Source of the DNA: Verrucomicrobiota bacterium
GTDB taxonomy: Bacteria > Verrucomicrobiota > Verrucomicrobiia > Limisphaerales > UBA8199
NCBI GenBank assembly: GCA_029974925.1
Contig: JARKQH010000288.1
Span: forward strand, 1-35,115
DNA: 35,115 nt
Reading direction: 5' to 3'
Shown: positions 585-26,325 of the stretch, one piece after another
Layout of the letters: every line of letters starts with the position of its first letter
Position numbering within the stretch: position 1 is the stretch's first letter
Notes under the pieces: model-generated
Told to the model about the DNA's origin: nothing
What the model saw: the letters and a program-made list of their open reading frames with translations, nothing else
The model's database searches: none
Position numbers and translations under genes: made by a program

Positions 585-3500
585 TTACGGTTCGAGCCGG
601 GCGCGGTAGAAACGACAGCACTGGGTTGCGGGTGCCGGGTCCACAAACAAAAAGGGCAGCGTGGGCGGGCGGGTGGTGCAGAGGGTCACCCAGTCCAGCA
701 GGTTCGAGGAAGTCTGGACCTCATAGTCGGGCCCTGCCGCGCCCGCAAGGAGAAAGGAGAACCTGCCCGCCGGGTCCAAACCCGGCGCGTGCAATGCGAG
801 TGGAGGCGGGGGGAGCACCACCACCCAGAAACTTTGCGTGGCACTCAAACCCGCCCCGCCGCCGGTTACCACCTGCAACCGCGGTGCCTGGACCGGCTCA
901 CCTTCTCTGGCGGTGTAATACACCAGACCGTCTGCCGTCGTCTGGGTCGCATAAACCCTTACGGACAACCGGCCGTCGGTCTCCAGCGCGCCTCGGGCGG
1001 CGGCCGTGAGCGGCACAGCCGTCACTTCTCCGGCGCGGGGCGTCCAGGTGGCCAAGGGGGGGCCGGACGCTGGTTTGTTCGCCCACGTCAGTGTGGTCTC
1101 ACCCCAAGCATTGCCCGCCACCGCCACCGCGTGGATGCCGGGGAGAATGGCGTCGCTGGAGTGCAGGCGGAGCTCCGCCCCGTCCACCCACCCCGGGATT
1201 TCGAACAGGTCAAAGCGCAGGAAACTTTCACGGCTCAGGCCCGCAGTGGCACTCTGCTTCACCACAAGGTGGGGTTGGGTGCCATAATTGGCATTGGGAT
1301 AACCGTCGAGAACATAGGCGTCCGCTTCGCATGGAACCTGGGTGTGCCACCCCTCCTGCGTGACCACCACCGTGAAGAGATTGCTGGTGCCGGCCATCTC
1401 GCGGGGCGGCCGCCACGACAGCAGGCCTTGGATTGGGTCCATGGCCGCGTCCGCCGGGGCGCTGGCGAGGCTGAACCGCAAGGACTGGGGCGGGACGTTC
1501 GGATCGAAGGCACGGTTGGTGACCCATAGCGTCGTTCCGGCGATGACCGATTGGCCGGCCACCGGGAGCAAACCGGGCGGGGACAAGAGGGGCGGGGCGG
1601 TGGCCGTGGCCTCGTTGCTGGCGGACGATTCGCCCGCGGCATTGGTGGCCACGACCCGATAGGCGTAGCTCGATCCCGCCGTTAGATTCGTATCCGTGAA
1701 GAAAGAAGCATCCCTGTCCAGCATGGCAATTCCCAAGTAGCCCCCTTCGGCGGCCGGGCGGCGCTCGACCCTGTAGCCGGTCTCGTTGGTGGCGGGGTCG
1801 GTCCACCGTAATCTAATCTGACACGGGGGTGCCGCCACCGCCACCAAGCCGGTCGGTGCGGCGGGGCGGGTCTCGGGCGCGCTCACCATGACCCGCACCG
1901 GTTCGGAAACCGCCTCGGCGCCGAGTGCATCAACCGCCCTGGCCGTGAGAAAGTACTCGCCCGGCTCCGCGAGGTCCCACACCACGGCATACGGGGGATC
2001 AGTTGCCACCCCCAAGAAGGCGGTATTGGCAAAAAACCGGACCTGGCTGATGCCATCGCTGTCGGAGGCGGATGCGGCGACGGTGATGCGGGCGGGGGTG
2101 AAGAACATCGCGCCGTTGGGCGGGTTGGTGATCTGCACGGCGGGCAATTGCGCGGGAAGATACGCCCTCCGCAGCTCATTCTCGAGGGCCACCCTTTCGA
2201 CATCCGACAGCGCCCGGCTGAAAATCAACACCTCGGCCAGATCGCCGGGGAAAAAGGTGCTGGCGGCACCCCGCCCGAGGTACGCGGCATTGACCGAGCC
2301 ATTGATGGCGGGGAGTTTGCCGGGCACGCTCATCACCAGGCGGCCATCCACGTAGAGACGGTCCGTGGTGCCGTCGTGGATGCCGACCGTGAGCGTGTAA
2401 CTGCCGCCGAGGCTGGCCGGGCGGTTGTATTTGATCAGGTTGCCGGTTTGGGTTGTGCCGAAGCGCATCACGACGTTGGTTTGAAACGGGCTCAGATAGG
2501 TCCAGCCCCAAGAGACGGTTTCATCCCAGAAAAGGGGGGCGTAATTGCCCTGATTGACGCCGGGGTCGCGGCTGGCATGGTTGGCGGAAACGAGAACCAT
2601 CGTCATGCCAGTCCAGCCGTTGATGGGGAGGGTGAAATTGAGGAAATCGTTCACCCCGTCGAACCGGACAACGGGCTTGCCGTTCAGCGCGTTGGGCACC
2701 CACGTGGGCTGGCTGGCGGCCGTCCCCTGGCTGGCATGGCGCTGGTGGCCGGATTGGTCCGCCCACTGCGACACAGCGCCCCCATTGAGCGTCACCCCCG
2801 CATCGGCCCGGACCCGGAAAGCCAGGTCTGGCGTGGGCAGCGTGGCGGCGGGCGTGGTGGCATGGACCGGCAGGCTCATTGGCGAATGGTTGCCGGCTGC
2901 GTCAAAGGCCCTCACGGTGTAACGATAGGTCGTTTCGGGGACCAGGCCAAAGTCCAGAAACGCCAGCGCGGCGGATGTGCCCACTTCCAACTGGTCGCGG
3001 TAAATCCGGTAGCCGGCCACGCCGGTGTCGTCCGTGGCGGGAGTCCAGCGCAACGAGACGCTTCGCGGCGTGGTGCCACTCACCTGCAGGCCGGCCGGCA
3101 CGGCTGGCGCCTGGATGTCCGGGCTGGAAAAAGAAGCCGAAAGGTTTCGAATCCGGATGTTGCGGAAGCGCGCCACGGCCCCGGCGGGCCACTCCGCCAC
3201 CGTCGAGTGCACCTGCAAGGCGATCCTTCCCGTGGGAGCAAGCCGGACCTGGCTGTCCTGGTAGTCTTTAATCTTGACACCGTTGATCCACGTGATGATG
3301 TGGGGCGGATTGTTGGTCACCTGGACGCGGAAGGTGTTCCAGCCCGCTGGATTCCAGATGGCGGGCCAATTGCTGGCGTTGAAGCAGGCAGGATTCCCCT
3401 GAATGGAATTGGTGCCGGTTAGAGTGAAATCCCAGAACCCCTGGTTGCCGATGCCTTCCAAATAAATGCCGCCCATGGGATTGTTGGGCTGATAATCAAT

Positions 3501-4967
3501 CGTGACCTGGTAAGCCCGGCCGCTGGCATCCGTGCGGGTAAAAAAGCCCGTATCCACGCCCCAATCCGGCCAGACCTCAAAGATGGCCTCAAAATCCCCG
3601 AAGCTTTGATCCGTGCAGAGCAGGCCGCCATTGCCGCTGCCCGGCGGAAGCTGCTGGCCGACGATGGCGCCGTTCTCGACCGTCCACAACCCGCCGGTGG
3701 CATGCCATCCGCTCAGGTTTGTGCCGGTGTCCAACCGGATCCAAACACTGTCGTTGCGCCAGAAATCGGCGTGGTAGGTGGGACCGTCCTTGTTCCAAAT
3801 CTTGCTCACCAGGTCCGGGTCCCCATCTCCATCCACGTCGCCCACACACGCGTCGTGCCACCCCGGATTGTCCTCCTGGATGACCCGCGGTTCAAACAGC
3901 GGGGGTGTCCCCCCCTGGTTCACCCAGATCACCCCCCGCTCTTTCAGCCCCCGAGGCTTCATCGGCAGCTTTCCCTGCGCCACCATGTAAGTGTCCGGGT
4001 CTTCCTGTTCTCCGGCAAAAATGTCCAAATCCCCGTCTCCGTCAAAATCCGCCACCGCCAGCGAGTGGAAGGATCCTGTCCCTTCCACACTGCCGGGAGA
4101 GGTTGGCGGGTCGGTCAGCCCGTAGCGCGTCCAATGGGTCCCTCCCCCATCGTTTCGCACCCAATAGACGTGGCTGTAGCCGGTGTCGCAGTCGCTGTAC
4201 ACGATGTCCTGGTCCCCATCTCCGTCCAGGTCCACCACCCAACTGCGAATGCTGGTGCCATAGGAGGCGTTGGGAATTTCCAGGTGCGGCCAGGGGTGGG
4301 CGGCCCACGCGCCCACGCCGGTGCCCGGATTGGCATACCACTTCCCTGCGATCACCAGGTCGAGGTCCCCATCCCCGTCCAAATCGCCCACGCCACGGGG
4401 TGCAACTCCTCCGTGATGCCCCACCCCCTGCGCCACCAGGTTGCTGGCCAGCCCCTGCGCCGAGTCGAACCAGGCCAGCGTGTTGCCATCAAACACCACG
4501 AGGTCATCCCGCCCATCTCCGTTCACGTCAGCGCCCAGCAGATCGTGCCCCGAGCCGCCAAAAGCATTCACCACCCAGGGGCTGTCCGGATTCTGACGCA
4601 GCGTTCCAGGGTTCTTGAACCACACCGAGCTGAACACCAGGTCAGTCCAACCGTCGTCGTCCACGTCCACCGCCGCCGCTCCCAAACCCTGCGGCAGTGC
4701 CGCACTGTCATTGATCAAGTGCGGGACCCACACCGCATCGCTGCGCCGCTCGTACCACCAGAAACCATGCGCGTCCCGCCGCGACAGGGCGCAGTCCCAA
4801 TCCCCGTCCCCGTCCAAGTCTGCCAAGGGAATGCCCGCCGTTCCCCAGTTGGTTCCGGGCAAGGGGTTGCAGATCGAAAAATGGGTGAACTGGACCTCCG
4901 CCTTCAGCAGCATGCCGGCGCACAAAGAGACGCCCAAGACCAGCCACCTTGAAACCGAATGAATCAT
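585..4967 (-). CDS. Large secreted mosaic protein: FG-GAP/VCBS repeats, DUF1080 (3-keto-disaccharide hydrolase-like) domain, FN3, LamG, bacterial Ig-like, FN3, DNRLRE/CBM96-like domain, C-terminal 'TSSNLLDW' domain
   Basis: ORF 585..5087. The likely start is the internal Met at 4967 (MIHSVSRWLVLGVSLCAGMLLKAE, signal peptide). Repeated DLDGDGDWD/DVNGDGRDD/DFDGDGDLD motifs; WHATGGLWTVENGAIVGQQ...INGVKIKDYQD (DUF1080-like); VRADAGVTLNGGAVSQWADQSG (LamG); DAYVLDGYPNANYGTQPHLVVKQS (DNRLRE). Confidence 0.85.
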   Translation of the reverse strand: MIHSVSRWLVLGVSLCAGMLLKAEVQFTHFSICNPLPGTNWGTAGIPLADLDGDGDWDCALSRRDAHGFWWYERRSDAVWVPHLINDSAALPQGLGAAAVDVDDDGWTDLVFSSVWFKNPGTLRQNPDSPWVVNAFGGSGHDLLGADVNGDGRDDLVVFDGNTLAWFDSAQGLASNLVAQGVGHHGGVAPRGVGDLDGDGDLDLVIAGKWYANPGTGVGAWAAHPWPHLEIPNASYGTSIRSWVVDLDGDGDQDIVYSDCDTGYSHVYWVRNDGGGTHWTRYGLTDPPTSPGSVEGTGSFHSLAVADFDGDGDLDIFAGEQEDPDTYMVAQGKLPMKPRGLKERGVIWVNQGGTPPLFEPRVIQEDNPGWHDACVGDVDGDGDPDLVSKIWNKDGPTYHADFWRNDSVWIRLDTGTNLSGWHATGGLWTVENGAIVGQQLPPGSGNGGLLCTDQSFGDFEAIFEVWPDWGVDTGFFTRTDASGRAYQVTIDYQPNNPMGGIYLEGIGNQGFWDFTLTGTNSIQGNPACFNASNWPAIWNPAGWNTFRVQVTNNPPHIITWINGVKIKDYQDSQVRLAPTGRIALQVHSTVAEWPAGAVARFRNIRIRNLSASFSSPDIQAPAVPAGLQVSGTTPRSVSLRWTPATDDTGVAGYRIYRDQLEVGTSAALAFLDFGLVPETTYRYTVRAFDAAGNHSPMSLPVHATTPAATLPTPDLAFRVRADAGVTLNGGAVSQWADQSGHQRHASQGTAASQPTWVPNALNGKPVVRFDGVNDFLNFTLPINGWTGMTMVLVSANHASRDPGVNQGNYAPLFWDETVSWGWTYLSPFQTNVVMRFGTTQTGNLIKYNRPASLGGSYTLTVGIHDGTTDRLYVDGRLVMSVPGKLPAINGSVNAAYLGRGAASTFFPGDLAEVLIFSRALSDVERVALENELRRAYLPAQLPAVQITNPPNGAMFFTPARITVAASASDSDGISQVRFFANTAFLGVATDPPYAVVWDLAEPGEYFLTARAVDALGAEAVSEPVRVMVSAPETRPAAPTGLVAVAAPPCQIRLRWTDPATNETGYRVERRPAAEGGYLGIAMLDRDASFFTDTNLTAGSSYAYRVVATNAAGESSASNEATATAPPLLSPPGLLPVAGQSVIAGTTLWVTNRAFDPNVPPQSLRFSLASAPADAAMDPIQGLLSWRPPREMAGTSNLFTVVVTQEGWHTQVPCEADAYVLDGYPNANYGTQPHLVVKQSATAGLSRESFLRFDLFEIPGWVDGAELRLHSSDAILPGIHAVAVAGNAWGETTLTWANKPASGPPLATWTPRAGEVTAVPLTAAARGALETDGRLSVRVYATQTTADGLVYYTAREGEPVQAPRLQVVTGGGAGLSATQSFWVVVLPPPPLALHAPGLDPAGRFSFLLAGAAGPDYEVQTSSNLLDWVTLCTTRPPTLPFLFVDPAPATQCCRFYRARLEP

Positions 4968-5002
4968 GTTCACGAGATTGCGTTCGAATCTGCCTTGTCC
5001 AC

Positions 5003-5029
5003 GCGGGGCGGCGCCGGAGGCCGCCCCGC
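5003..5029. repeat. Perfect 10-bp stem / 7-nt loop inverted repeat between the two large surface-protein genes
   Basis: GCGGGGCGGC (5003-5012), gccggag, GCCGCCCCGC (5020-5029). No T-tract on either side. Confidence 0.6.
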
Positions 5030-5137
5030 TCCCAGCCTTTGACACAAGCAGCGCCGCCCTGTGGGTGGCTCCGGCTGCTCCGAACAACCTGTTTCAACGT
5101 GTTGCCGGGCCGCCCCATGGGGCCGAATCCGAACGGG

Positions 5138-8077
5138 CTACTTCTTCAATCGAAGATACTTCGGCCCCTCGCTCAAGGGCAAGGTCACGGTCATCTGATC
5201 GCCGACCTGGACCGGTGTCTGGCTGACCGCTGACCAGGACGGCGCGTTCAGATTGTCGCACGATTCCAGCGTATAGTCAGTCGCGGCGGCAGGCCAGGAG
5301 ACGATGACATTGCCGCCCTCGCGGGCCACCGCCAAGGCCGGCGGCGGCGGTGCGGTGGGATCACTCAAGTCCTCCCCGACCGCCAGGTAAAAATCATCCA
5401 TCCAGAAACCGCCGTTGGGGGGATTGCTGACGGACTGCAAAATGGTGCGGATGTAGAGCCGGATCAGCGGGTTGGCGGCGACGCCATGGTAAAAGCTGAA
5501 GGTCATATTGCCTGACCAGTCCACCGGGGTGATGTTCGCATGTTCACCGCCCTGGATGTACATCTTCCATGTGTCGGTGGCATTGTTGACAACCATCCAT
5601 AACTTGTACCACACGTCCGACCGGAACGCCTGGCTGTTGGTCCGAAGCGTCCCGCCATCCAAAACGGCGAGGTAGGGATTGGCGAGGTTGTTACCCGTGT
5701 AACGGCGGCCTTGCACCTCGAAGGCGCTCTCCTCGGCATACCCAAACGCCGGCTCATCCGAGAACCCGAACTTGATGTCATCCCGGCTCCAGGTGGTCGA
5801 AGCGGCGCGGAAAAACAACGTGCGGGTCTCGCCTTCGGGAACAAGGGCCGGGAAGGAAAGCGTCTGATTGGCCTTGGCCAGGCGGAGCACCTTGTTGGTG
5901 GGATTTCCACCGGCAAAGGTTGTGGGGTCCAGGCGGACCGAGTCATCGGGGAACGCCCCAGACCACTCGCCTTGGAACAGCAGCGGAGCCAGTTGGCGGC
6001 CCTCGAAGTTTTCCAGCAGCGTGAAGCCCGCGGCCGCGCGGCCAAATACGAACACCGGCGCCGAATAGTTGAACAACCCGTCATTGTCCGTAGCTTTGGC
6101 CGTGATCATGTGCGCGCCGGGTCCGACGTTGTTCCACTCCACACTCCAGGGCGCCTCGGTGGCGGTGCCGATCAGGGTGCTGCCATCAAAGAACTCGACC
6201 TGCGTGATCGTGCCGTCCGCGTCCGACCCACTCGCCGTGAGGGTGAGGCTGGAGGGCAACACCAAGTCGGTGTTGTCGGCGGGCGTGGTGAGCGCCACCT
6301 CGGGTTGCGCCTTGGCCCAGTACTTCGCCTGCAGGTAGGTGTCCAGGTCCGCCAGTTCGCCGCTGGACAAGGCGTTGGTATAGACGAGAATCTCCTGAAT
6401 TTCCCCGCGGAGATAGGTGTAGAAGCTGCTGAAGAACCCCCGGCCGATGTTCCCCCGATTCCCATCAATGCCGGCGGTCATGGGGGCCTTGCCGCTTACC
6501 GTCACCGCCAGCACGCCGTTGGTGTAGAGGGTCTCGGTTGGACCGTCCTTGACGACCACGGTGCGGGTGTAGTTCCGCACCAGGGAGGCCGGGCGCTGCA
6601 GCGCCGGTCCCGGATAGTTCGGGCTGCCGGACTGGCTGCTTGTCGTGCCAATTCGCCAGGTTGCGGAGTCTTGAAAAACGCCGAGGTTCATGCCGCCCCA
6701 CCCCGCCGATTCGTTCCAGTAAAGGACGGCGCAACCTTCGCCCGCCGCGCCCGTCGTTTGGGGCGAGGTGTTGTTTCCCACCGCCACCAGCGTCAACCCG
6801 GTCAGGTCGTTGACCGGCATGGCGAAAGTCAAATGATTGCTGACGCCGTCAAAATAGAGGGCCGGCATGCCGTTGCCCCCGGTGATCAACCGGGGCCGCG
6901 CCGTGGCCACAGGCTGTACGGCATGCCGTTCGAAGCCGGACTGGTCGGCCCACACCGAGACCCCCCCCTCGGCGGTCGTGACCCCCGCGTCCGCCTTGTA
7001 CCACAGGCCCAATCCGCTCAACACCGGCCCATCTTCTGGAGACGCATAGTTCACGCGAATCACCACGCGCTCCGATACCGCCCACGCGCCCTCGGTGTCC
7101 GTCGCCCTGGCGGTCAATCCGTATGCCCCGCCGGACACCCCGCTCCAAGTGACACTGTAGGGCGGAGTCGAGTCGGTACCGATCGGGACGCCGTTGGCGA
7201 AAAACTCCACCTGCGCAATACTGCCATCGTCGGCGGCGTCCGCCGTGACGGTGATGTCCGCCGGAGCGGTGAACACGGCCAGGTTGGCCGGACTCGTGAT
7301 GCTCACGGTGGGCCGTTGATTGGCCAGGTATTTGTTGTAAAGATAGGTTTCCACAGTTTCCCGCTCGGTTTCGGACAAGGCCCGCGTGTAAACCAGAACC
7401 TCGAGGAGGTCCCCCGCGAAATAGGTGTTGTAGCCCCGCCCGAGGTAGCCATTGTCCGCCACGCCGGCGAGCGGATAGTTCTTGTATTCCAGACGCAGGG
7501 CTTCCGCCCGGTCCACAAACAAGGTCTCCACCTCCGTGTTCTTGATAAGGGTGGTCAGCGTGGGGGCCGACCCAATCGAGGCCGGCCGCGCATACCGGCA
7601 GTTGTTGCCGGAGGAGGTGGTGCCAAACCGCCAGTTGACATTGGTCTGAAACACGCCGAGAAACACCCACCCCCAACTGGCCGTTTCATTCCAGAAAATG
7701 GCCGGGCAATCCGAATAGCTGGTGCCGCCATTCTGCGCCGCCGAATTGTTGTTGCCCACCAGAATGAGGCTTACGCCCTCCAGCCCGTTGATCGGGATGC
7801 TGAAATTCAGGAAGTCGTTGACTCCGTCAAAGCGGACGGCCGGTTTCCCGAGGCTGGAGGTGATCAATACCGGTTGATTCGGGGCGCTGTCCTGGCTGCT
7901 GTGATGGCTCTGGCCGGACTGGTCGGCCCAGGTTTGCACCCCGTCGCCGTTCAACGTCAGGCCTGCATCGCTCCGCAGCCACAGCGTCAGGCCGTCCGTG
8001 GGAATTTGGGCGCCGGCGCGGTAACTTCCGCCGAGAGCCAGCGCCAGGAGGCTTGCGAGGATGATTTTGGTTTTCAT
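5138..8077 (-). CDS. Secreted protein with two tandem LamG + bacterial Ig-like cassettes and a C-terminal 'YTLESCDNLN..W' domain
   Basis: Signal peptide MKTKIILASLLALALGGSYRAGAQ; two copies of GL(T/G)LW..(S)DAG(L/V)T...WADQSG...(L/Y)FDGV(N/S)...; two copies of PxVxxTxPAxxxxxxxP..xTxxAxxxDG.IxQVEFF. Confidence 0.88.
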   Translation of the reverse strand: MKTKIILASLLALALGGSYRAGAQIPTDGLTLWLRSDAGLTLNGDGVQTWADQSGQSHHSSQDSAPNQPVLITSSLGKPAVRFDGVNDFLNFSIPINGLEGVSLILVGNNNSAAQNGGTSYSDCPAIFWNETASWGWVFLGVFQTNVNWRFGTTSSGNNCRYARPASIGSAPTLTTLIKNTEVETLFVDRAEALRLEYKNYPLAGVADNGYLGRGYNTYFAGDLLEVLVYTRALSETERETVETYLYNKYLANQRPTVSITSPANLAVFTAPADITVTADAADDGSIAQVEFFANGVPIGTDSTPPYSVTWSGVSGGAYGLTARATDTEGAWAVSERVVIRVNYASPEDGPVLSGLGLWYKADAGVTTAEGGVSVWADQSGFERHAVQPVATARPRLITGGNGMPALYFDGVSNHLTFAMPVNDLTGLTLVAVGNNTSPQTTGAAGEGCAVLYWNESAGWGGMNLGVFQDSATWRIGTTSSQSGSPNYPGPALQRPASLVRNYTRTVVVKDGPTETLYTNGVLAVTVSGKAPMTAGIDGNRGNIGRGFFSSFYTYLRGEIQEILVYTNALSSGELADLDTYLQAKYWAKAQPEVALTTPADNTDLVLPSSLTLTASGSDADGTITQVEFFDGSTLIGTATEAPWSVEWNNVGPGAHMITAKATDNDGLFNYSAPVFVFGRAAAGFTLLENFEGRQLAPLLFQGEWSGAFPDDSVRLDPTTFAGGNPTNKVLRLAKANQTLSFPALVPEGETRTLFFRAASTTWSRDDIKFGFSDEPAFGYAEESAFEVQGRRYTGNNLANPYLAVLDGGTLRTNSQAFRSDVWYKLWMVVNNATDTWKMYIQGGEHANITPVDWSGNMTFSFYHGVAANPLIRLYIRTILQSVSNPPNGGFWMDDFYLAVGEDLSDPTAPPPPALAVAREGGNVIVSWPAAATDYTLESCDNLNAPSWSAVSQTPVQVGDQMTVTLPLSEGPKYLRLKK

Positions 8078-8242: not shown

Positions 8243-9109
8243 CTAGTTCTTTCTCGCGGTGGTCCGCTCCCACAGCCAGCCCATGTCATTCGGCGCCGAT
8301 CCGCCCCGCGAATAGGTACCGCCCCGGTTCACCGGTTTGAGGGTGGCGGCATCCCGCCACTTGTGGATCTCCGCATGGCCGTCGGCGAAGGTCAGTCCCC
8401 CCGCTCCCCCGTGATAGCTGGCGGGGCAGTCGTTGACGACGTTGTCATTGAGCATGCCGAAGAAACCGTCATTAATGCTGTCCTCCCGCTCGTCCAGGAT
8501 CACCCACAAGTTCACCGGGGGAGGCCGGATGATGTCGGACAGTTTCTTGTAGCTGTAATAATCCGGTTTGTTGAAGCCCTCGTTGCCAGCGCCGACCACG
8601 TAGCTATTCATCGCGACACTGCGCACCCGCGGACCGAGACCCTCGACCACGCTCTGATCCGCGGGGCATTTGTAGATGGCCGGGCTCTTCGTATAAGGCC
8701 CCAGGACCGATTTCATCAAGAGCACAGTGTTGGTGTTGTCGCGGTTGCTGGCGTTGTAATCCATCATCCCGTCCACCCAGCCGTAGCCTTTCTGGCCGGC
8801 GGCGTTGACCCCCCACTGGTTGTTGGGCGGCAGCGTGCCATTGTGATCGTCCGCGTACAGGATCCAGGCGAGGGTCAGTTGTTTGAGGTGGTTCATGCAG
8901 TAAATGCCCTGCGCCCTGACCTTGGCCTTGGAAAGGACCGGGAGCAGCATCGCAGCGAGGATTGCGATGATTGCAACCACCACCAACAGCTCGATCAGCG
9001 TGAAGCCGCGCGGGCCCGCCCTCCAGACGCGGGTGCCTGAACGACCTTGGAACCATGTCTCCGGCCTCGAGACCGGTGTTAGACAACGTGTGAGTTTATT
9101 CTTTTCCAT
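8243..9109 (-). CDS. DUF1559-type prepilin-like protein (type II secretion / pseudopilin N-terminal cleavage motif, H-X9-DG C-terminus)
   Basis: [30 protein letters not shown] class III signal; C-terminal [19 protein letters not shown]. Confidence 0.92.
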
Positions 9110-9256
9110 GATCGGCTCTTCTCATCAACCGTCATTTCCACTGTTTGGTGCCGGGCCGCCGGGGGCCCTCGTGCCGCAACCCGTAAGCCCCCGGCGAACC
9201 GCAGCCCTGCGACATCACTCTACCGTGCCAGCTTAGCGCCGGCCCGGCATTTGCCT

Positions 9257-9276
9257 AGCTCCCCAATCGGGGAGTT
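9257..9276. promoter_or_regulatory. Inverted repeat, candidate operator (site 1), upstream of the pseudopilin gene
   Basis: AG CTCCCC AATC GGGGAG TT (perfect 6-bp arms 9259-9264/9269-9274); 16/20 identical to the site at 12340-12359. Confidence 0.4.
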
Positions 9277-9321: not shown

Positions 9322-10860
9322 TCAGCGTGTCAAGGGCTGACCCGGGCGGCGGCCGGTGCTGCGCCCGTCTGCAAACACGATTTCTCCATTGACCCACACC
9401 CGCACAATGCCCGTGGAAAGGCGGTGGGGTTCCTGGATCGTGGCCTGGTCCGCCACCGTGGCCGGATCGAACAAGACCAGATCGGCCGGCCAGCCCGCTT
9501 GCAATCGGCCGCGGTTGGTCAGACCCGCCTGTTGCGCCGCCAGCCAGGTCATCTTCCGCACCGCCTCCTCCAGCGACAGCACCGGGCGCTCCCGGACGTA
9601 ACGGCGCAAGACCCGCGGAAAGGCGCCCCGGTGCCGGGGATGCGCCATGACCAGCCCCCCGTCGGTGCAGACCGTCGCATGGGGCCAGACCAGGAGCGCT
9701 TCGACATCGGGCTCGCTCATACTGTGGCCAATGACGCATTCGCCGGCCTTGCCGGTGCGCTGCTGCCGGGCCAGGGATTCTTCGACCAACTCGATCAAGG
9801 TGGTGGCTTCATCCCGTTGCCGCTGGCGCGCGATCTCGGCGATGCTCATTCCAACCAGCCCGGGCTCGGCATCAAATTGTCCCAACACCAGTCCCGCCCC
9901 CGGCGCCACCTCCCGCAAGGCCAACTCGGCTGCCGCCCGGTTGGTGAAGTCCCGGTTCGGGAACAGAACCGTCATGGTGGACTGCCAGTAGGTGTAGGGA
10001 TAGACGTCCGCCGTGACGTTCACGCCCCCGGCGCGCGCCGCCTCCAGTTTCTTCAACAAGCGCGCACTCTGTCCCCACAACGAGCACATGCCCAGCTTGA
10101 GGTGGGAAATCTGCACGGGCACCTTGGCCTTGCGGCCAATTTCCAACGCTTCCTCCAACGCCTCCCAAAACCGCCGGTCCTCGCTGCGGATATGACTGAC
10201 ATAACGCCCCCCCGCGCGCGCCGCCACCCTGGCCAGTGCCACCAGTTCCGCCGTGTCCGAGTAAATGCCCGGGTTGTACTCCAAACCCGTGCTCAGCCCT
10301 AGCGCCCCCGCGCGCAGCTCCTGCTCCAAGAGAAGTGACATCGCGGCCAGCTCTGCCTCGCGGCATCGGCGTCCGATTTCCCGCCCCAGGACCCGGCGCC
10401 GCAGCGTGCCATGGCCGGCGAAGGCCGCCAGGTTGATGGCCGGCGGCTGGGTCCGCAAGCGCGCAAAAAAATCCGCCAGCGGGTACGGCGATTCGCCGTC
10501 CTGGCCCACAATGGCCGTCGTGATTCCCTGACTGACCGCCGCCAGCGCATCAGGTTGTTCGAGGATCAGCTCGTCCACATGGCTGTGCGCGTCAATGAAA
10601 CCGGGCGCGAGGACCAAGCCATGGCCGGAAACCACTTCCTCGCCCGGCTCCGGGCGCAGCTCCCCCATTTCAACAATGCGGCCAGCAGCGACGCGAACAC
10701 TCCCCTCCCGCCGCGGCGCGCCCGTGCCGTCCACCAGCGTGGCGTCGCGAATCAAGGTGGCCGCCACGACGGCCACCGGCCACAGCAAGGCCAGAGCCGC
10801 AGCCCGGGCGCGGCGCGGCGCGGAGACGGTTCCAGGGAAAAGAAGCTGTCCGGGTTTCAT
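9322..10860 (-). CDS. Exported N-acyl-D-amino-acid deacylase / D-aminoacylase family amidohydrolase (512 aa)
   Basis: Start at 10860 (MKPGQLLFPGTVSAPRRARAAALALLWPVAVVAA), giving an ATGA overlap with the upstream beta-lactamase stop. LVLAPGFIDAHSHVDE, YVSHIRSEDRRFWEALEEALEIGRKAKVPVQISHLK, GLTNRGRLQAGWPADLVLFDPATVAD. Confidence 0.88.
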   Translation of the reverse strand: MKPGQLLFPGTVSAPRRARAAALALLWPVAVVAATLIRDATLVDGTGAPRREGSVRVAAGRIVEMGELRPEPGEEVVSGHGLVLAPGFIDAHSHVDELILEQPDALAAVSQGITTAIVGQDGESPYPLADFFARLRTQPPAINLAAFAGHGTLRRRVLGREIGRRCREAELAAMSLLLEQELRAGALGLSTGLEYNPGIYSDTAELVALARVAARAGGRYVSHIRSEDRRFWEALEEALEIGRKAKVPVQISHLKLGMCSLWGQSARLLKKLEAARAGGVNVTADVYPYTYWQSTMTVLFPNRDFTNRAAAELALREVAPGAGLVLGQFDAEPGLVGMSIAEIARQRQRDEATTLIELVEESLARQQRTGKAGECVIGHSMSEPDVEALLVWPHATVCTDGGLVMAHPRHRGAFPRVLRRYVRERPVLSLEEAVRKMTWLAAQQAGLTNRGRLQAGWPADLVLFDPATVADQATIQEPHRLSTGIVRVWVNGEIVFADGRSTGRRPGQPLTR

Positions 10861-12305
10861 TCGGGTTCCATGCTCAGCGACCCCACCCGTCCTTCGGCAT
10901 CCGTGACCGCTTCCAGACGCAACACCCCGCGGCGCGCCGCCGTTCGATACAGGCGGCGCCGCACTCCGTCCCGCTGGGTGGTCTCGAGCAATTCCAAGCG
11001 TCCCAACGCGCCAAAATCCCGCAGGAGGGGCGGCAGTTTGCGCAACCATTTTGGGGGCGTGGAGTTTGGCCCGGCCACGGCGAACCCCTCCGGCAGGGGG
11101 TGGCCCGCCCGCACGTCTTCCAAGACGGACTTCAATCGCTGAGTGAATTCGGGATCGGGGTCGGGCCTGACCTGGCCGCGCAAGGCGGGCAGGACCCGCC
11201 GCGCCACACCGCGTGCCAGCGCCCCCGGATCGCCCTGTGCCAGATTGAACAGCACGATCACTGTGAGGCGGTCGTCGAGATAGCGGCTGATCTGGGCCTT
11301 GAACCCCTGCCAGGAACCGGAGTGGTAAACCACCCGATGGCCCAACTCCTGGTCCACAAACCACCCGCAGCCGTAACCGGCTCCTTCCAGGGCCAGGCAT
11401 GTGCTGGCGCCGTTCCCAAACCGAGCCGGGGTCCACATGGTCTCCCGCACCCAGCGGGACAGCGGCTGCTCCGCGTCCAGTGCCGCATCCCAGCGCAACA
11501 GGTCCCGGGCCGTGACATACAGGCAGCCGTCCCCCATGCGGTTGAGGCTGGGCGCAATCCAACCCTGGTTTTTCACCTGGTCTCCCACCAGGCGATACCC
11601 CGCTGCCCGTCCGGGAATCACGTCGCTTTCGCTGATCACCCGGGTCGCCTTCATGCCCAGCGGTGTGAGCAGGCGGTCACGTAAGAAATCGCCATGAAAC
11701 TGTCCCGTCACCCGCGTTACGAGGTGACCCAGGAGCATGTAACCGGTATTGCAGTAGGACCAACTGGTGCCCGGAGCGAACTTCAGCGGCCGGTCGGCCA
11801 GGAGTTGAATCAGTTCCTCCTCGGTGTAATCCCGGCGAAAGTCAATCACGTCGCTGCTGGTGTAGTCGGGCAAACCGGAGGTGTGTTGCAACAGGTGCCG
11901 CACGGTCACGGGCCGCCAGGCCGGCGGCACGCCGGGAATATGCTGGACGATTGAATCGTCCAGCCCCACGCGCCCTTCTTCCACCAGCAGGAGAACGCAC
12001 GCCGCCACAAATTGCTTTCCCATCGAACCGGCCTGGAAAACCGTGTCCGGTGTCACCGGCGCGCCGTGTTCCAGGTTGGCCAGTCCGTAACCCCTGGCTC
12101 GGCTCACCCGACCGTCTTTGACCACGGCCAGCGCCAGGCCGGGAATCTGCTGCCGCTTCATCTCGGCGCGGATGAACCGGTCCACGGCATCCCCCCGAGC
12201 TGACGCGGGCTGGACCAGGCCAAGTCCCAGGCCGGTGGCCAGGCCGGCCGCCACCAGTCGCGGCAACCGTTGGCTGGCCCACGCAACGCACCTGCGGCTT
12301 TTCAC
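10857..12305 (-). CDS. Exported serine hydrolase, class C beta-lactamase / D-aminopeptidase-like
   Basis: ORF 10857..12341; probable GTG start at 12305 (VKSRRCVAWASQRLPRLVAAGLATGLGLG signal peptide). SxxK in GSMGKQF, YxN in YCNTGY, HSG in VVYHSGSWQG. Confidence 0.85.
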   Translation of the reverse strand: MKSRRCVAWASQRLPRLVAAGLATGLGLGLVQPASARGDAVDRFIRAEMKRQQIPGLALAVVKDGRVSRARGYGLANLEHGAPVTPDTVFQAGSMGKQFVAACVLLLVEEGRVGLDDSIVQHIPGVPPAWRPVTVRHLLQHTSGLPDYTSSDVIDFRRDYTEEELIQLLADRPLKFAPGTSWSYCNTGYMLLGHLVTRVTGQFHGDFLRDRLLTPLGMKATRVISESDVIPGRAAGYRLVGDQVKNQGWIAPSLNRMGDGCLYVTARDLLRWDAALDAEQPLSRWVRETMWTPARFGNGASTCLALEGAGYGCGWFVDQELGHRVVYHSGSWQGFKAQISRYLDDRLTVIVLFNLAQGDPGALARGVARRVLPALRGQVRPDPDPEFTQRLKSVLEDVRAGHPLPEGFAVAGPNSTPPKWLRKLPPLLRDFGALGRLELLETTQRDGVRRRLYRTAARRGVLRLEAVTDAEGRVGSLSMEPE

Positions 12306-12339
12306 AACACGAAATGCTACCCCCCCGCGCGGCCCCGGC

Positions 12340-12359
12340 AACTCCCCAAATGAGGAGTT
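12340..12359. promoter_or_regulatory. Inverted repeat, candidate operator (site 2), immediately upstream of the beta-lactamase gene
   Basis: AACTCCCCAAATGAGGAGTT: arms AACTCC/GGAGTT; 16/20 identical to 9257-9276. Confidence 0.4.
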
Positions 12360-12386: not shown

Positions 12387-13019
12387 TCAGCCGCCCATGC
12401 CAGTCCGGTATTTGAGGAGGGCCTGGGCGCGCGAGTGCACGTGCAGCTTGGGATAGATGTGCCGCAAATGCCAGCGCACCGCCTCGACGCTGATTCCCAG
12501 CCGGTCTGCCACCTCCTTGTTGCTGAGCCCCTCGGCCACCAGGCGCAACACCTCCAGCTCCCGCGGTGACAATTCATCCATGGCCTCGGCCGCCGCCACC
12601 GGCTCGCGAAACTGGGCAATGACCTTGCGCGCGATTTCCCGCGTCATGGGCGCCCCGCCTGCATGGACCTCCCGGATCGCCGCCACGATTTGTTCCGGCG
12701 TGGATCGTTTCAACAGGTAGCCGCACGCGCCGGCCCGGAGGGCGCGAAAGATGCGGTCTGGATCCTCATACACCGTGAGCATGAGCACTTGGGTGTCGGG
12801 CAGAAGGTTTTTAAGTTGGGCGGTGCAGTCCACGCCCGAGAGGTTGGGCAACTGGATGTCCATCAAGACCACCTCCGGCGCACAGCGGGGCAGCAGGCGC
12901 AGGGCTTCCTCCGCCGTGGCCCACGCGCCCACGCACTGGCAGCCCGGCGCCAGATTCACAATGGTTTCAAGGCTTTCCCGAACCGTCCGATTGTCCTCAA
13001 CAATGGCTACCCGGATCAT
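12387..13019 (-). CDS. NarL/LuxR-family DNA-binding response regulator
   Basis: MIRVAIVEDNRTVRESLETIV, VLMDIQLPNLSGVDC receiver domain; LSPRELEVLRLVAEGLSNKEVADRLGISVEAVRWHLRHIYPKLHVHSRAQAL HTH. Confidence 0.95.
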   Translation of the reverse strand: MIRVAIVEDNRTVRESLETIVNLAPGCQCVGAWATAEEALRLLPRCAPEVVLMDIQLPNLSGVDCTAQLKNLLPDTQVLMLTVYEDPDRIFRALRAGACGYLLKRSTPEQIVAAIREVHAGGAPMTREIARKVIAQFREPVAAAEAMDELSPRELEVLRLVAEGLSNKEVADRLGISVEAVRWHLRHIYPKLHVHSRAQALLKYRTGMGG

Positions 13020-16000
13020 AAGGTTGCTGGGCCAGCGGTAATCGCATCTCGACCGTCGTGCCCTGGCCGGCGGCGCTCAGAATCCGGCACTGGCCGCCCA
13101 GATCGGCCAGCCGTGAGCGGAGATTGGCCAGGCCATTCCCCTTGGCCGGCGGGGCGGAGGGGTCGAATCCGCATCCGTTGTCCGCGACCGCCAGCACCAG
13201 TTCGTTGCCGCTGACCGCCATGCGGAGATGCACTTCGGTCGCCTGCGCGTGGCACACGACATTGTTCAGCGCCTCCTTGAACGCCAGCAGCAGTCCGTGC
13301 CGCGACGTGGAATCCAGGGCGCGATCCGGCAGGTCGTCCGGCACATCCAGGTTGCAGCGCAGGCCGGCCAGGCCGAGGAACCGCTGCGCGTAGAGCCCGC
13401 AATACCCCGCCAGGCTGGGCACCGAATCGTAGCGCGGATTGGCAGTCCACACAATTTCGTCCAGCGCGTCCACCAATTGCCGCGCCCGGTCCGTCAACTG
13501 GCGCAAACAATCGCTCTTCTTCTCGGGCGGCACGCTGCCGCCGGCCACCAGTTCGCCGAGCAGGCTGATCTCGGTCAATCCGCCGCCCAGGTCGTCGTGC
13601 AGATCGCGCGCCAGCCGGCTGCGTTCGCGCTCCAGCGCCTGCTGCTGCTGGATGCGCTGCCGGGTTTGAATTTCCCGTGCCAGTTGGCCTGTGCGCTGGC
13701 GCACCTCGTAGCGCAGGACATGAATCCAGAGGAGCGACGCGAGCAAGACCGCTCCCAGCACGCCCGCCAGTGCCAGGACCCGCCCCGGCGTCCACCAGGG
13801 CGGCCTCTTCAAAACCACGATGTCTCCCGCACCCCCCAATACCACCTCGAAGTCTTCCACTTCCCGCCCCGCCGCCCAATCGCCACCCCGGCCCACATAC
13901 ACCCCTGTCACCGCCACGCGGCTGCCGGGGGCCAGCGGCGGGAGCAGTCCCAATCCGGTGTACAGGCGCGCCGTATGCAGATGGTTCCCGGTCCGCAAGT
14001 CCATCACCTGATGGCCGGTCCGCTGGCCCACTTTCAGCAAATGCGACTCCACGCGCACGCGCGTGGCATCGTAACTGCCGCTGAACAGATTCGTCGTCTG
14101 CAACTGCCGGGGCTCCGGCAGCGGACACCGCCGCCCCGGCCGCACCACCGCCTGGCGGAGCACCGGGGCGAAGCCCCCGAGGTCGAGCACCCCCACGACC
14201 TCGACCATTGCCCCGGCGGGCGCTGGCACTGGCTCCCGCGGATAGAACCGCAGACCGTTGGTTCCCTCCAGAACACAATGCAAATCCGGCTGCGTGTGAA
14301 TCAACTGCCCCGCCACCCGGACGCGCTGCAGCGCACTGGCTTGGGGATCGAAGCCGCGCAGGGCCGCCACCGAACGCAACGGCAGGGCAAACGGATCCGC
14401 CGGCGCCGGCTCGTCCACCAGCACGGTTGGCTCGATGATACGCAGCGAGCCACTTTGCAGCAGCCCCGTGGCCCGGTCATACCCTGCGAACACGCAACCG
14501 CGCACGCGCACCAGGGCGTTCTCGTACTGCCGCCAATCCTTGCGACTCGTGCCCTCGGGATTGATCTCCAGCAGCTCGATTCCCCCCACCCGCGTCAGCA
14601 ACTCCACCCGCCCCTCACTCGCGCCTGTGACAATCCCCTGGATTTCCACGTACTGAGCGTCGAGACTCCCGTTCAAAACCTGGTCGCGGGTTGGCCAAAC
14701 GGGCTCCGGCAGGGCCGACAAGCCGAGTCGCCGCAACTCCCGTGCGTCAATAATCGGCGCAAAGTATCCCGGCAACGACACCCCCGTCACCTCGCAGTAG
14801 TCGCCGATTTCAAGCACCCCGCGGGTGCGCTGGTCCCGCACGCCGACGTAAATGCCCTGCTCGTGATCCTGGATCACCAGCCCCAGCGCGTCAATGAACT
14901 TGGCCGTGACAACTCCTCGCACCCGCACCGGGTAGTTGCGGGCGGCCTGCTCCGGACTGAGGCTGCGCACCTGCCGCACCCGGGTCAACAACGGGAGACC
15001 GTCCGGCTCCGGGCCTGCGGGTTGCTGCTGCACCACGGCATTCTCGAGCACCAGCCGGTCCTCGCAACTGGCCAGGCGCCCCACTGCTTCCACGGCATCG
15101 CCTGGCTGGATATTCAAGGGCTGGCCGCACCCGACATGCACTTCCCCCTCCCCGTCCTGCAACACCAGTACCCGGCCCGAGCCGAGACTCCCGACGTTCC
15201 CACGCACGCGAACCACGGCTGGCATTTCACCCGGGTGGTTCCTTTCCGCCAGCTCCCGCAACCTCACCAGCGGAAATTGCGCCCACCGCTCCGGTGACAC
15301 CCGCACCAGTTCGACTTTCTCCCACGCTGGACTCCACAACGCGCCGGCCACCCGGCGCCCCTCCAGCGTGTGCAGTCCGTGAACGATGCCGGTCGCCCGC
15401 AGCCACCCCCCCAAAAGCACTGCCGGACAGCATCCCCCTTTCCCGCCGACCTCCAGCCGCAGCCGCTCCCGGCCAGACTGCAGTTCCAGCCGCCAGCCCT
15501 GCTGGTGTTGCAGCACGGAAATGACTTCCCCCTCCGCCTCGTAAAGGCCGAACTCCTCTTCGTCGGCCAGCGCCGCACCGATGACCAGCCGGCGCGGAGC
15601 TGGCGGCCGCCCCTCTTGCAAAGCCGTGATTCGCACCTCCGGTTGGCCCACAAACAGCAGACTGCCGTCATCTGATTCCGTGTAAAAGTGATAGCGGCCT
15701 TCGCGCAGGATTTCCAAAAAACCGGTGAATTCCAGCCCCACGTTTTCCCGCCGGCTCCTCACCCCAAGGTCGAAATTGGCGCTTTGGCCGCGCGCGACAA
15801 CCGGCCACGGAGTGAAATCCGGCACCGCCCCCCACTCGCCTTCCCAGCACTGGTACTCGAGTCCAGGCACCCAGGCGGATGCCGGGGTGAACGCTCCCTT
15901 GTCCAACCGAAACAAAGCGCTGTCCGGAATGACCTGCCGCGGCAGGTCCGGCCCCTCGTAGGAGACTTTGAGCGCCGTCTGGCCGTGACGGTTGATCCAG

Positions 16001-16461
16001 GCCAGGCGGATCGGATGAAGCCCCGCGCGCAGAACGACCGAGCCGGAGGCTTCCCTCGCCAAATGCAGGCCGTCATTATTCACCACAAGGGCCGGCACCA
16101 GGATGAATCCCAGGCCGCTCCGCTGCGCCGAGCACTCTCCCTCCAACCGCAGCCCCTGGCCCGGCCGGGGAGCCTCCCCGGAGAATGTCAGCCGCACCGG
16201 CACCGCCCCGGAGCGGTCCACCAAAATCACCCGCCCCGCTTCCGGGTCCGCCCACCAAACCACCCCTTCCAGACACACCGGCCAGTTCTCATGTCTTCCG
16301 CCGCTGGCCAGACGGTAAAACCAGGCCGCATTGGTGACGATGGGCAGCGTCCGCTCGGGCTCGAATTCCGGCACCCCCGCGCTGCCACCCGAACTTGCGG
16401 CCGCCTTCACCCCGCAACTGGCCAAGCACAGCATCGTGGTGATGAACATCAGGGCGCGCAT
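12997..16461 (-). CDS. Sensor histidine kinase with very large exported ectodomain (PA14-like plus tandem OB-like repeats), one TM, HisKA_3/HATPase_c output
   Basis: N-terminal MRALMFITTMLCLASCG (signal/lipobox-like); GFLEILREGRYHFYTESDDGSLLFVG (PA14-like); repeated VRVRGxV...VLQD... modules; TM VLALAGVLGAVLLASLLWIHVL; RSRLARDLHDDLGGGLTEISLLGELV (HisKA_3); FKEALNNVVCHAQATEVHL...VADNGCGFDP (ATPase). Overlaps the RR gene by 23 bp. Confidence 0.9.
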   Translation of the reverse strand: MRALMFITTMLCLASCGVKAAASSGGSAGVPEFEPERTLPIVTNAAWFYRLASGGRHENWPVCLEGVVWWADPEAGRVILVDRSGAVPVRLTFSGEAPRPGQGLRLEGECSAQRSGLGFILVPALVVNNDGLHLAREASGSVVLRAGLHPIRLAWINRHGQTALKVSYEGPDLPRQVIPDSALFRLDKGAFTPASAWVPGLEYQCWEGEWGAVPDFTPWPVVARGQSANFDLGVRSRRENVGLEFTGFLEILREGRYHFYTESDDGSLLFVGQPEVRITALQEGRPPAPRRLVIGAALADEEEFGLYEAEGEVISVLQHQQGWRLELQSGRERLRLEVGGKGGCCPAVLLGGWLRATGIVHGLHTLEGRRVAGALWSPAWEKVELVRVSPERWAQFPLVRLRELAERNHPGEMPAVVRVRGNVGSLGSGRVLVLQDGEGEVHVGCGQPLNIQPGDAVEAVGRLASCEDRLVLENAVVQQQPAGPEPDGLPLLTRVRQVRSLSPEQAARNYPVRVRGVVTAKFIDALGLVIQDHEQGIYVGVRDQRTRGVLEIGDYCEVTGVSLPGYFAPIIDARELRRLGLSALPEPVWPTRDQVLNGSLDAQYVEIQGIVTGASEGRVELLTRVGGIELLEINPEGTSRKDWRQYENALVRVRGCVFAGYDRATGLLQSGSLRIIEPTVLVDEPAPADPFALPLRSVAALRGFDPQASALQRVRVAGQLIHTQPDLHCVLEGTNGLRFYPREPVPAPAGAMVEVVGVLDLGGFAPVLRQAVVRPGRRCPLPEPRQLQTTNLFSGSYDATRVRVESHLLKVGQRTGHQVMDLRTGNHLHTARLYTGLGLLPPLAPGSRVAVTGVYVGRGGDWAAGREVEDFEVVLGGAGDIVVLKRPPWWTPGRVLALAGVLGAVLLASLLWIHVLRYEVRQRTGQLAREIQTRQRIQQQQALERERSRLARDLHDDLGGGLTEISLLGELVAGGSVPPEKKSDCLRQLTDRARQLVDALDEIVWTANPRYDSVPSLAGYCGLYAQRFLGLAGLRCNLDVPDDLPDRALDSTSRHGLLLAFKEALNNVVCHAQATEVHLRMAVSGNELVLAVADNGCGFDPSAPPAKGNGLANLRSRLADLGGQCRILSAAGQGTTVEMRLPLAQQPYDPGSHC

Positions 16462-25656: not shown

Positions 25657-26325
25657 ATGAAGACTGCGGCGGCAACTTCGAAGCCGGTGGTGTGGCTGAT
25701 TGAGGACCATGCGGATTCGCGGCGGGTTCTGGCGCGGGTGCTGAATCGCTCGGCGAAGCTCGCCTGTCCCTGCACGTTTGCCACGTGCGAGGAAGCGTTG
25801 GCGGCCCTCAAAACCAATCCGCCACCGGACGTGATTCTGCTGGACATCGGCCTGCCGGGGATGAACGGGATCGAAGGCATTCCGCTCTTGAAGAACCTCG
25901 CTCCGGCGACGCACGTCATCATCCTGACGGTCTTTGACGACCAGGAAAAAGTATTCAATGCCATCTGCGCCGGGGCGTCCGGCTACCTGCTGAAGAATAC
26001 CGATGAAGAGGCCATCGCCACGGCGGTGCGGGAGGTCCTGGACGGCGGGTCGCCCATCAATCCGCGCGTTGCCCGCATGGTGTTGAACATGTTCGCGTCG
26101 CGGGCCGCGCCTCACAAGCAGGAGTACGGCCTCTCGGCCCGGGAGCGCGAGGTGCTCGAATTGATGGTCCAGGGCTTGATCAAGAAGGAGATCGCCGCCC
26201 GCCTCAACCTCAGCTATCATACGGTGGACAACCACTTGCGCAGCATTTACGGCAAACTGCAGGTTCACACCCGCGGCGGGGCCGTGGCCAAGGCGGTCGC
26301 GGAGGGGATTTTGTCCACGTCATGA
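25657..26325 (+). CDS. NarL/LuxR-family response regulator without an adjacent histidine kinase
   Basis: KPVVWLIEDHADSRRVLARVL, VILLDIGLPGMNGIEGI, LSAREREVLELMVQGLIKKEIAARLNLSYHTVDNHLRSIYGKLQVHTRGGAVAKA; internal Met of ORF 25387..26325. Confidence 0.93.
   Translation: MKTAAATSKPVVWLIEDHADSRRVLARVLNRSAKLACPCTFATCEEALAALKTNPPPDVILLDIGLPGMNGIEGIPLLKNLAPATHVIILTVFDDQEKVFNAICAGASGYLLKNTDEEAIATAVREVLDGGSPINPRVARMVLNMFASRAAPHKQEYGLSAREREVLELMVQGLIKKEIAARLNLSYHTVDNHLRSIYGKLQVHTRGGAVAKAVAEGILSTS

Follow-up and report, generated by a model that had tools for sequence, protein, structure and literature searches.

Candidate palindromic operators of a NarL-type response regulator in a Limisphaerales genome and their counterparts in related two-component loci

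Regulators of the NarL/FixJ family bind short inverted repeats as dimers. NarL, VraR, DevR and DesR, all LuxR-type members of this family, share their domain architecture with the regulator studied here, and a NarL-type regulator on an inverted repeat at the -35 position is a known kind of arrangement. To our knowledge, the arms of the operator family described below are unlike the NarL heptamer. In contrast to the NarL/FixJ operators, this family has a dyad with a 4-nt centre, a near-constant CTAGGC at -35, and arms that vary with the class of the recognition helix. The layout resembles that of class II activator promoters, of which CRP at -41.5 is an example: the activator site lies near -42, overlaps the -35 element and keeps a fixed distance to the -10 element, although this geometry is here inferred from sequence and activators such as CRP belong to a family other than that of the NarL-type regulator. 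The nearest described analogue, with many paralogues and local motifs, is found in the polysaccharide loci of Bacteroides, where footprinting has defined local motifs for many paralogous AraC-type hybrid two-component systems (PMC3878776). Those are single-chain regulators acting on long-spaced direct repeats, whereas the systems considered here consist of a separate kinase and NarL-type regulator, with palindromes at -35. No description of this operator family, or of a matching motif in the group, was found in the open-access literature searched.

Two palindromes in a two-component locus

The window (the whole stretch of DNA that was analysed, 35,115 nt) contains two palindromes, sites A and B. 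The minus strand is the coding strand of all genes around them, and the order on it is kinase, regulator, site A, hydrolase, deacylase, site B, prepilin-type gene, and the genes of two large proteins (Table 1). The regulator combines a receiver domain (Pfam Response_reg, PF00072, 1e-24) with a LuxR-type helix-turn-helix (GerE, PF00196, 5.7e-19), and VraR, NarL, and DevR are among its closest solved structures. The kinase and regulator genes are kept together in relatives.

Table 1. Features of the two-component locus and of the predicted promoters at sites A and B
Feature	Position	Strand	Remarks
Partner sensor histidine kinase	12997-16461	-	weak partial PA14 match (N-terminal part), HisKA_3, HATPase
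NarL/FixJ-type response regulator	12387-13019	-	recognition helix VEAVRWHL; candidate binding protein for both sites
Site A, palindromic operator candidate	12340-12359	.	AACTCCCCAAATGAGGAGTT; minus strand AACTCCTCATTTGGGGAGTT
TTGCCG, -35 slot of site A	12336-12341	-	overlaps 3' end of palindrome; slot is CTAGGC elsewhere
TAGCAT, -10-like, site A	12314-12319	-	16 nt after TTGCCG
Beta-lactamase-family serine hydrolase	10857-12305	-	PF00144; likely start GTG 12305; first gene behind site A
Amidohydrolase / N-acyl-D-amino-acid-deacylase-like protein	9322-10845 (start ~10845)	-	PF07969; second gene behind site A
Site B, palindromic operator candidate	9257-9276	.	AGCTCCCCAATCGGGGAGTT; minus strand AACTCCCCGATTGGGGAGCT
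CTAGGC, -35 slot of site B	9253-9258	-	2-nt overlap with palindrome
TAAGCT, -10-like, site B	9230-9235	-	exactly 17 nt after CTAGGC
Prepilin-type (DUF1559-like) protein	8243-9109	-	first gene behind site B
Secreted Ig-like/LamG protein	5138-8077	-	probable second gene of site B operon; order kept in G137
Secreted multidomain protein (FG-GAP, 3-keto-disaccharide hydrolase, CBM96)	585-5087	-	probable third gene of site B operon; order kept in G137

The initial annotation had described an inverted repeat between the regulator stop and the likely hydrolase start, matching a second palindrome at 16 of 20 positions. The repeat is present as claimed, about 27 nt 3' of the regulator stop and upstream of the hydrolase gene, and the degree of identity was confirmed. 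Site B follows the deacylase stop by about 45 nt and lies upstream of the prepilin-type operon; the two copies bracket the beta-lactamase/deacylase pair at a distance of 3.1 kb from each other. No further intergenic copy had been seen by eye, and a scan of the window with up to 3 mismatches to site A likewise returned no other copy (shuffle mean, 0.01). The degenerate motif of the initial annotation matched only these two sites in the window, against 0.37 matches expected. A weak TAGCAT element had also been pointed out; it is real, stands at the -10 position and belongs to a layout conserved in relatives.

Both sites are rare in the source genome. With ACTCCCC-N4-GGGGAGT and at most 1 mismatch, nothing else in the assembly (5.73 Mb in 487 contigs) matches. 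At up to 3 mismatches, 227 matches were found genome-wide compared with 268 for the reversed control; there is no enrichment, and thus the motif is not global. A global regulon motif or dispersed repeat was ruled out on these counts, and a palindrome pattern with a 5-nt spacer was dropped as wrongly spaced, the true centre being 4 nt. These genome-wide statistics are pattern searches, and since the consensus was derived from sites A and B, the genome-wide count is in part circular when taken by itself; what supports the putative motif independently is its conservation in relatives.

Transcription is predicted to start at about 12307 for site A and about 9222 for site B. Site A fits the consensus layout less well: its slot reads TTGCCG instead of CTAGGC, the spacing is 16 nt, and the predicted start precedes the GTG at 12305 by only about 2 nt. 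The message would then have almost no leader, unless translation begins at a codon further in. A related locus (L148) has TTGCCA in the corresponding -35 slot. A strict promoter scan found nothing at sites A and B, as is expected given the poor -35.

The genes behind site A look like D-amino-acid or peptide hydrolases. The hydrolase and deacylase are also adjacent in two Saprospiraceae genomes (L051, L052), where the deacylase is 53% identical, and the pair may travel between phyla as a unit. The hydrolase relatives were uninformative as evidence on the site, the closest ones found being in other phyla. The window also encodes a second NarL-type response regulator (25693-26292, plus strand; 43% identical; helix NLSYHTVDNHL), with no recognisable matching site adjoining it.

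Conservation of the site and of the promoter layout in relatives

The closest regulator is that of G137, a genome from a different family, whose cluster is collinear with the window (identities of 50% for the kinase, 75% for the regulator, 67% for the prepilin-type protein, and 60% and 68% for the next two). There, the site ACTCCTCATTTGGGGAGCTAGGC is found 27 nt after the regulator stop; it is identical to site A at 19 of 20 positions, while its flanks are poorly conserved. The hydrolase/deacylase pair is absent between the regulator and the prepilin gene, and the single site is immediately followed by the prepilin orthologue. This indicates a gain of the pair in the window or a loss in G137. 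Compared with the G137 site, site A has kept the arm sequence and its spacing from the regulator, and site B has kept CTAGGC and the prepilin target. The check for conservation near regulator orthologues that the initial annotation had proposed was run, and it showed a non-random motif: alongside the near-identical G137 copy, related forms track the recognition helix elsewhere.

Across the order, kinase orthologues are followed by the regulator and then by varied secreted proteins. The intergenic DNA behind the relatives' regulators contains palindromes with a 4-nt centre, for example AACTAGCC-TTTT-GGCTAGTT in G010; G029 and G052 have the same CCACACATTTGTGAGG. Among the related NarL-type regulators, about 60 have a [WF]HL recognition helix; in these, the dyad often adjoins the gene and is followed by CTAGGC and then TAnnnT. 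CTAGGC was picked out in an initial set of loci, and loci from genomes reached only later served as the hold-out. Sites were scored by six arm pairs and six anchor letters, within 203 nt in the hold-out search. A score of at least 10 was reached at 11 of 34 hold-out [WF]HL regulators, compared with 0.24 in dinucleotide shuffles and 0 both in coding windows and on the reverse strand; a score of at least 11 was reached at 9 of 34, compared with 0.00 in shuffles. None of 75 same-family regulators with other helices reached a score of 10.

TAnnnT stands exactly 17 nt past the CTAGGC slot in 20 of 39 anchored sites and at 17-19 nt in 30 of 39, while any other offset accounts for 0-2 of the 39. This spacing is that of a putative sigma-70-type promoter with the dyad overlapping its -35. 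The palindrome-plus-anchor score misses imperfect dyads, sites that do not carry CTAGGC, and site A itself; thus, its counts are lower bounds. At 18 of 61 [WF]HL regulators, no recognised site was found within 253 nt downstream, and some of these have one farther off (G071). An early hint of no conservation, in which the strict pattern ACTCCYCNNWTKRGGAGT found almost nothing in 97 relatives, was rejected, since each helix class has arms of its own. The reversed-pattern control is unsuitable for patterns that contain CTAG, because CTAG reversed becomes GATC, and was not used for them; the control of an order-wide scan calls for the same caution.

Recognition helices, operator arms and predicted regulons

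The arms of the dyad follow the recognition helix. Helices of the form AAVK[WF]HL go with CTAGCC-N4-GGCTAG (14/15), [DE]GT[VI]RWHL with ACATTTGTGnGG (9/14), ETVTWHL with CCnCAGnTTTTGGGGG (5/6), and LTLRWHL with CACCCyAnTTGTGGGG (3/3). The class of the window regulator, [EDA]A[VI]R[WF]HL, goes with CTnCyCnnTTGGGGAG in 5/15, and in more with looser matching. The class patterns are nearly absent outside their own class, and none adjoins any of the 78 regulators whose helices are of other types. In a tree of receiver domains, built without the recognition helix, the helix classes are largely clades and require about 5 changes of helix and 7 of operator; the helix-operator pairing is consistent, but the correlation therefore rests on few independent shifts. 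The same tree places the window regulator and that of G137, with weak support, nearer to the DGT class than to the rest of their own helix class. Since regulators across the order often have their own version of the site within a promoter of fixed distances, it appears that the two have coevolved. The balance tips slightly toward a large family of paralogous kinase/NarL-type pairs, in which a private operator beside each regulator gene keeps the pair apart from the others, and a single layout (dyad, CTAGGC, 17 nt, TAnnnT), in which the arms would form a readable code against a few helix residues.

Downstream palindromes were also observed at 13 of the 78 regulators with other helices, compared with 3.6 in shuffles. 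Perfect palindromes with a 4-nt centre lie behind L173, L176, L291, and L303, for example AAATCATCC-GTTT-GGATGATGC. This excess hints that private operators are general, and they may extend to the whole regulator family. Several unrelated perfect hairpins, such as CGCAGACA-TTCT-TGTCTGCG and CGCCGCACT-TTCC-AGTGCGGCG, were found 3' of the regulators at L281 and L161; these runs look like dispersed REP-type elements and not like operators.

An order-wide scan of 320 genomes was used to view the distribution of the operators. For the D-class pattern, 15 of 16 matches were on the contig of a listed regulator (control, 0), and for the K-class pattern, 13 of 18; nearly all matches on regulator contigs were within about 10 kb of the regulator. 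The predicted regulons are small and local, with no genome-wide regulon in the source genome. Class-type operators were also seen on contigs that carry no listed regulator (G180:C2, G183:C322, G248:C35 and C262, and G021:C80), and these are remote targets, unless their regulators fell below the cut-off or were lost at contig breaks. The relatives' targets are mostly secreted: GH16 enzymes (G071, G122, G029, G165), CBM and Ig-like proteins, one PEP-CTERM protein, and prepilin-type proteins. The GH16 targets suggest that the regulator subfamily often serves polysaccharide breakdown.

Proposed regulation and alternative explanations

Sites A and B are very probably operators of the adjacent regulator. 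The initial annotation had suggested this NarL/LuxR-type regulator as the binder of the repeat, and the conservation in G137 and the helix-following arms support that proposal. In the proposed mechanism, the adjacent kinase would phosphorylate and activate the regulator, and a regulator dimer would bind the palindrome. Transcription is predicted to start about 42 bp downstream of the dyad centre, so the downstream half of the dyad would cover the -35 slot, and the bound regulator would recruit RNA polymerase, as in class II activation. Site A would act on the hydrolase and deacylase genes. Site B is probably the other half of the local regulon, driving the prepilin-type operon at 9109. The analysis shows the sequence with its rarity and conservation, the fixed spacing to the -10-like hexamer, and the helix-following arms; we infer the binding, the phosphorylation, activation in preference to repression, and a sensed signal.

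The same regulator might instead act as a repressor at both sites, with a dimer on the -35 slot blocking RNA polymerase until the signal changes. NarL-type regulators can both activate and repress, and a dyad over the -35 slot also suits repression. However, measured against TTGACA, CTAGGC makes a poor -35, suggesting that the promoter needs help, and the spacing from the dyad to the -10 is tightly held, as is typical of polymerase contact. Repression is thus unlikely, and activation is the more likely mode. The position of the palindromes, no more than about 50 nt after a stop codon, and their capacity to form hairpins would also suit a role at the 3' ends of the regulator and deacylase genes, as terminators or hairpins. 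Yet there is no T-run on either strand, both sites are absent from the terminator scan, and neither the one-sided CTAGGC-17-TAnnnT tail nor the helix-specific arms fit such a role; in G033, G122, G029, and G132, moreover, the sites precede distant genes. We regard termination as highly improbable.

Sites A and B might lack any regulatory role and instead mark a mobile piece with the beta-lactamase/deacylase pair as cargo, being its ends or target duplications. This is also very unlikely: the uninterrupted G137 cluster has one site without the pair, as do dozens of related regulators. What speaks for a mobile piece is that the copies flank the pair exactly, that G137 lacks the pair in a cluster that is otherwise syntenic, and that the closest hydrolase relatives found belong to other phyla. 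An insertion may be real and may have duplicated the operator, but the sequence itself is left unexplained by it. A chance likeness of two palindromes in a GC-rich genome would agree with there being just two genome copies, but is practically negligible given the conservation in G137, the class-matched forms in dozens of genomes, and the enrichment beside regulators in the hold-out loci.

In sum, the reading of sites A and B as operators of the adjacent regulator gives a two-component family from a little-studied order a candidate binding site, a promoter layout, and a local regulon, and it links these two-component systems to secreted carbohydrate-active enzymes. With dozens of regulators showing matching helix and operator changes, the family provides a natural data set on the way in which duplicated regulators come to differ in DNA specificity. 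If the arm-helix code is true, targets would be predictable from sequence alone for uncultured members.
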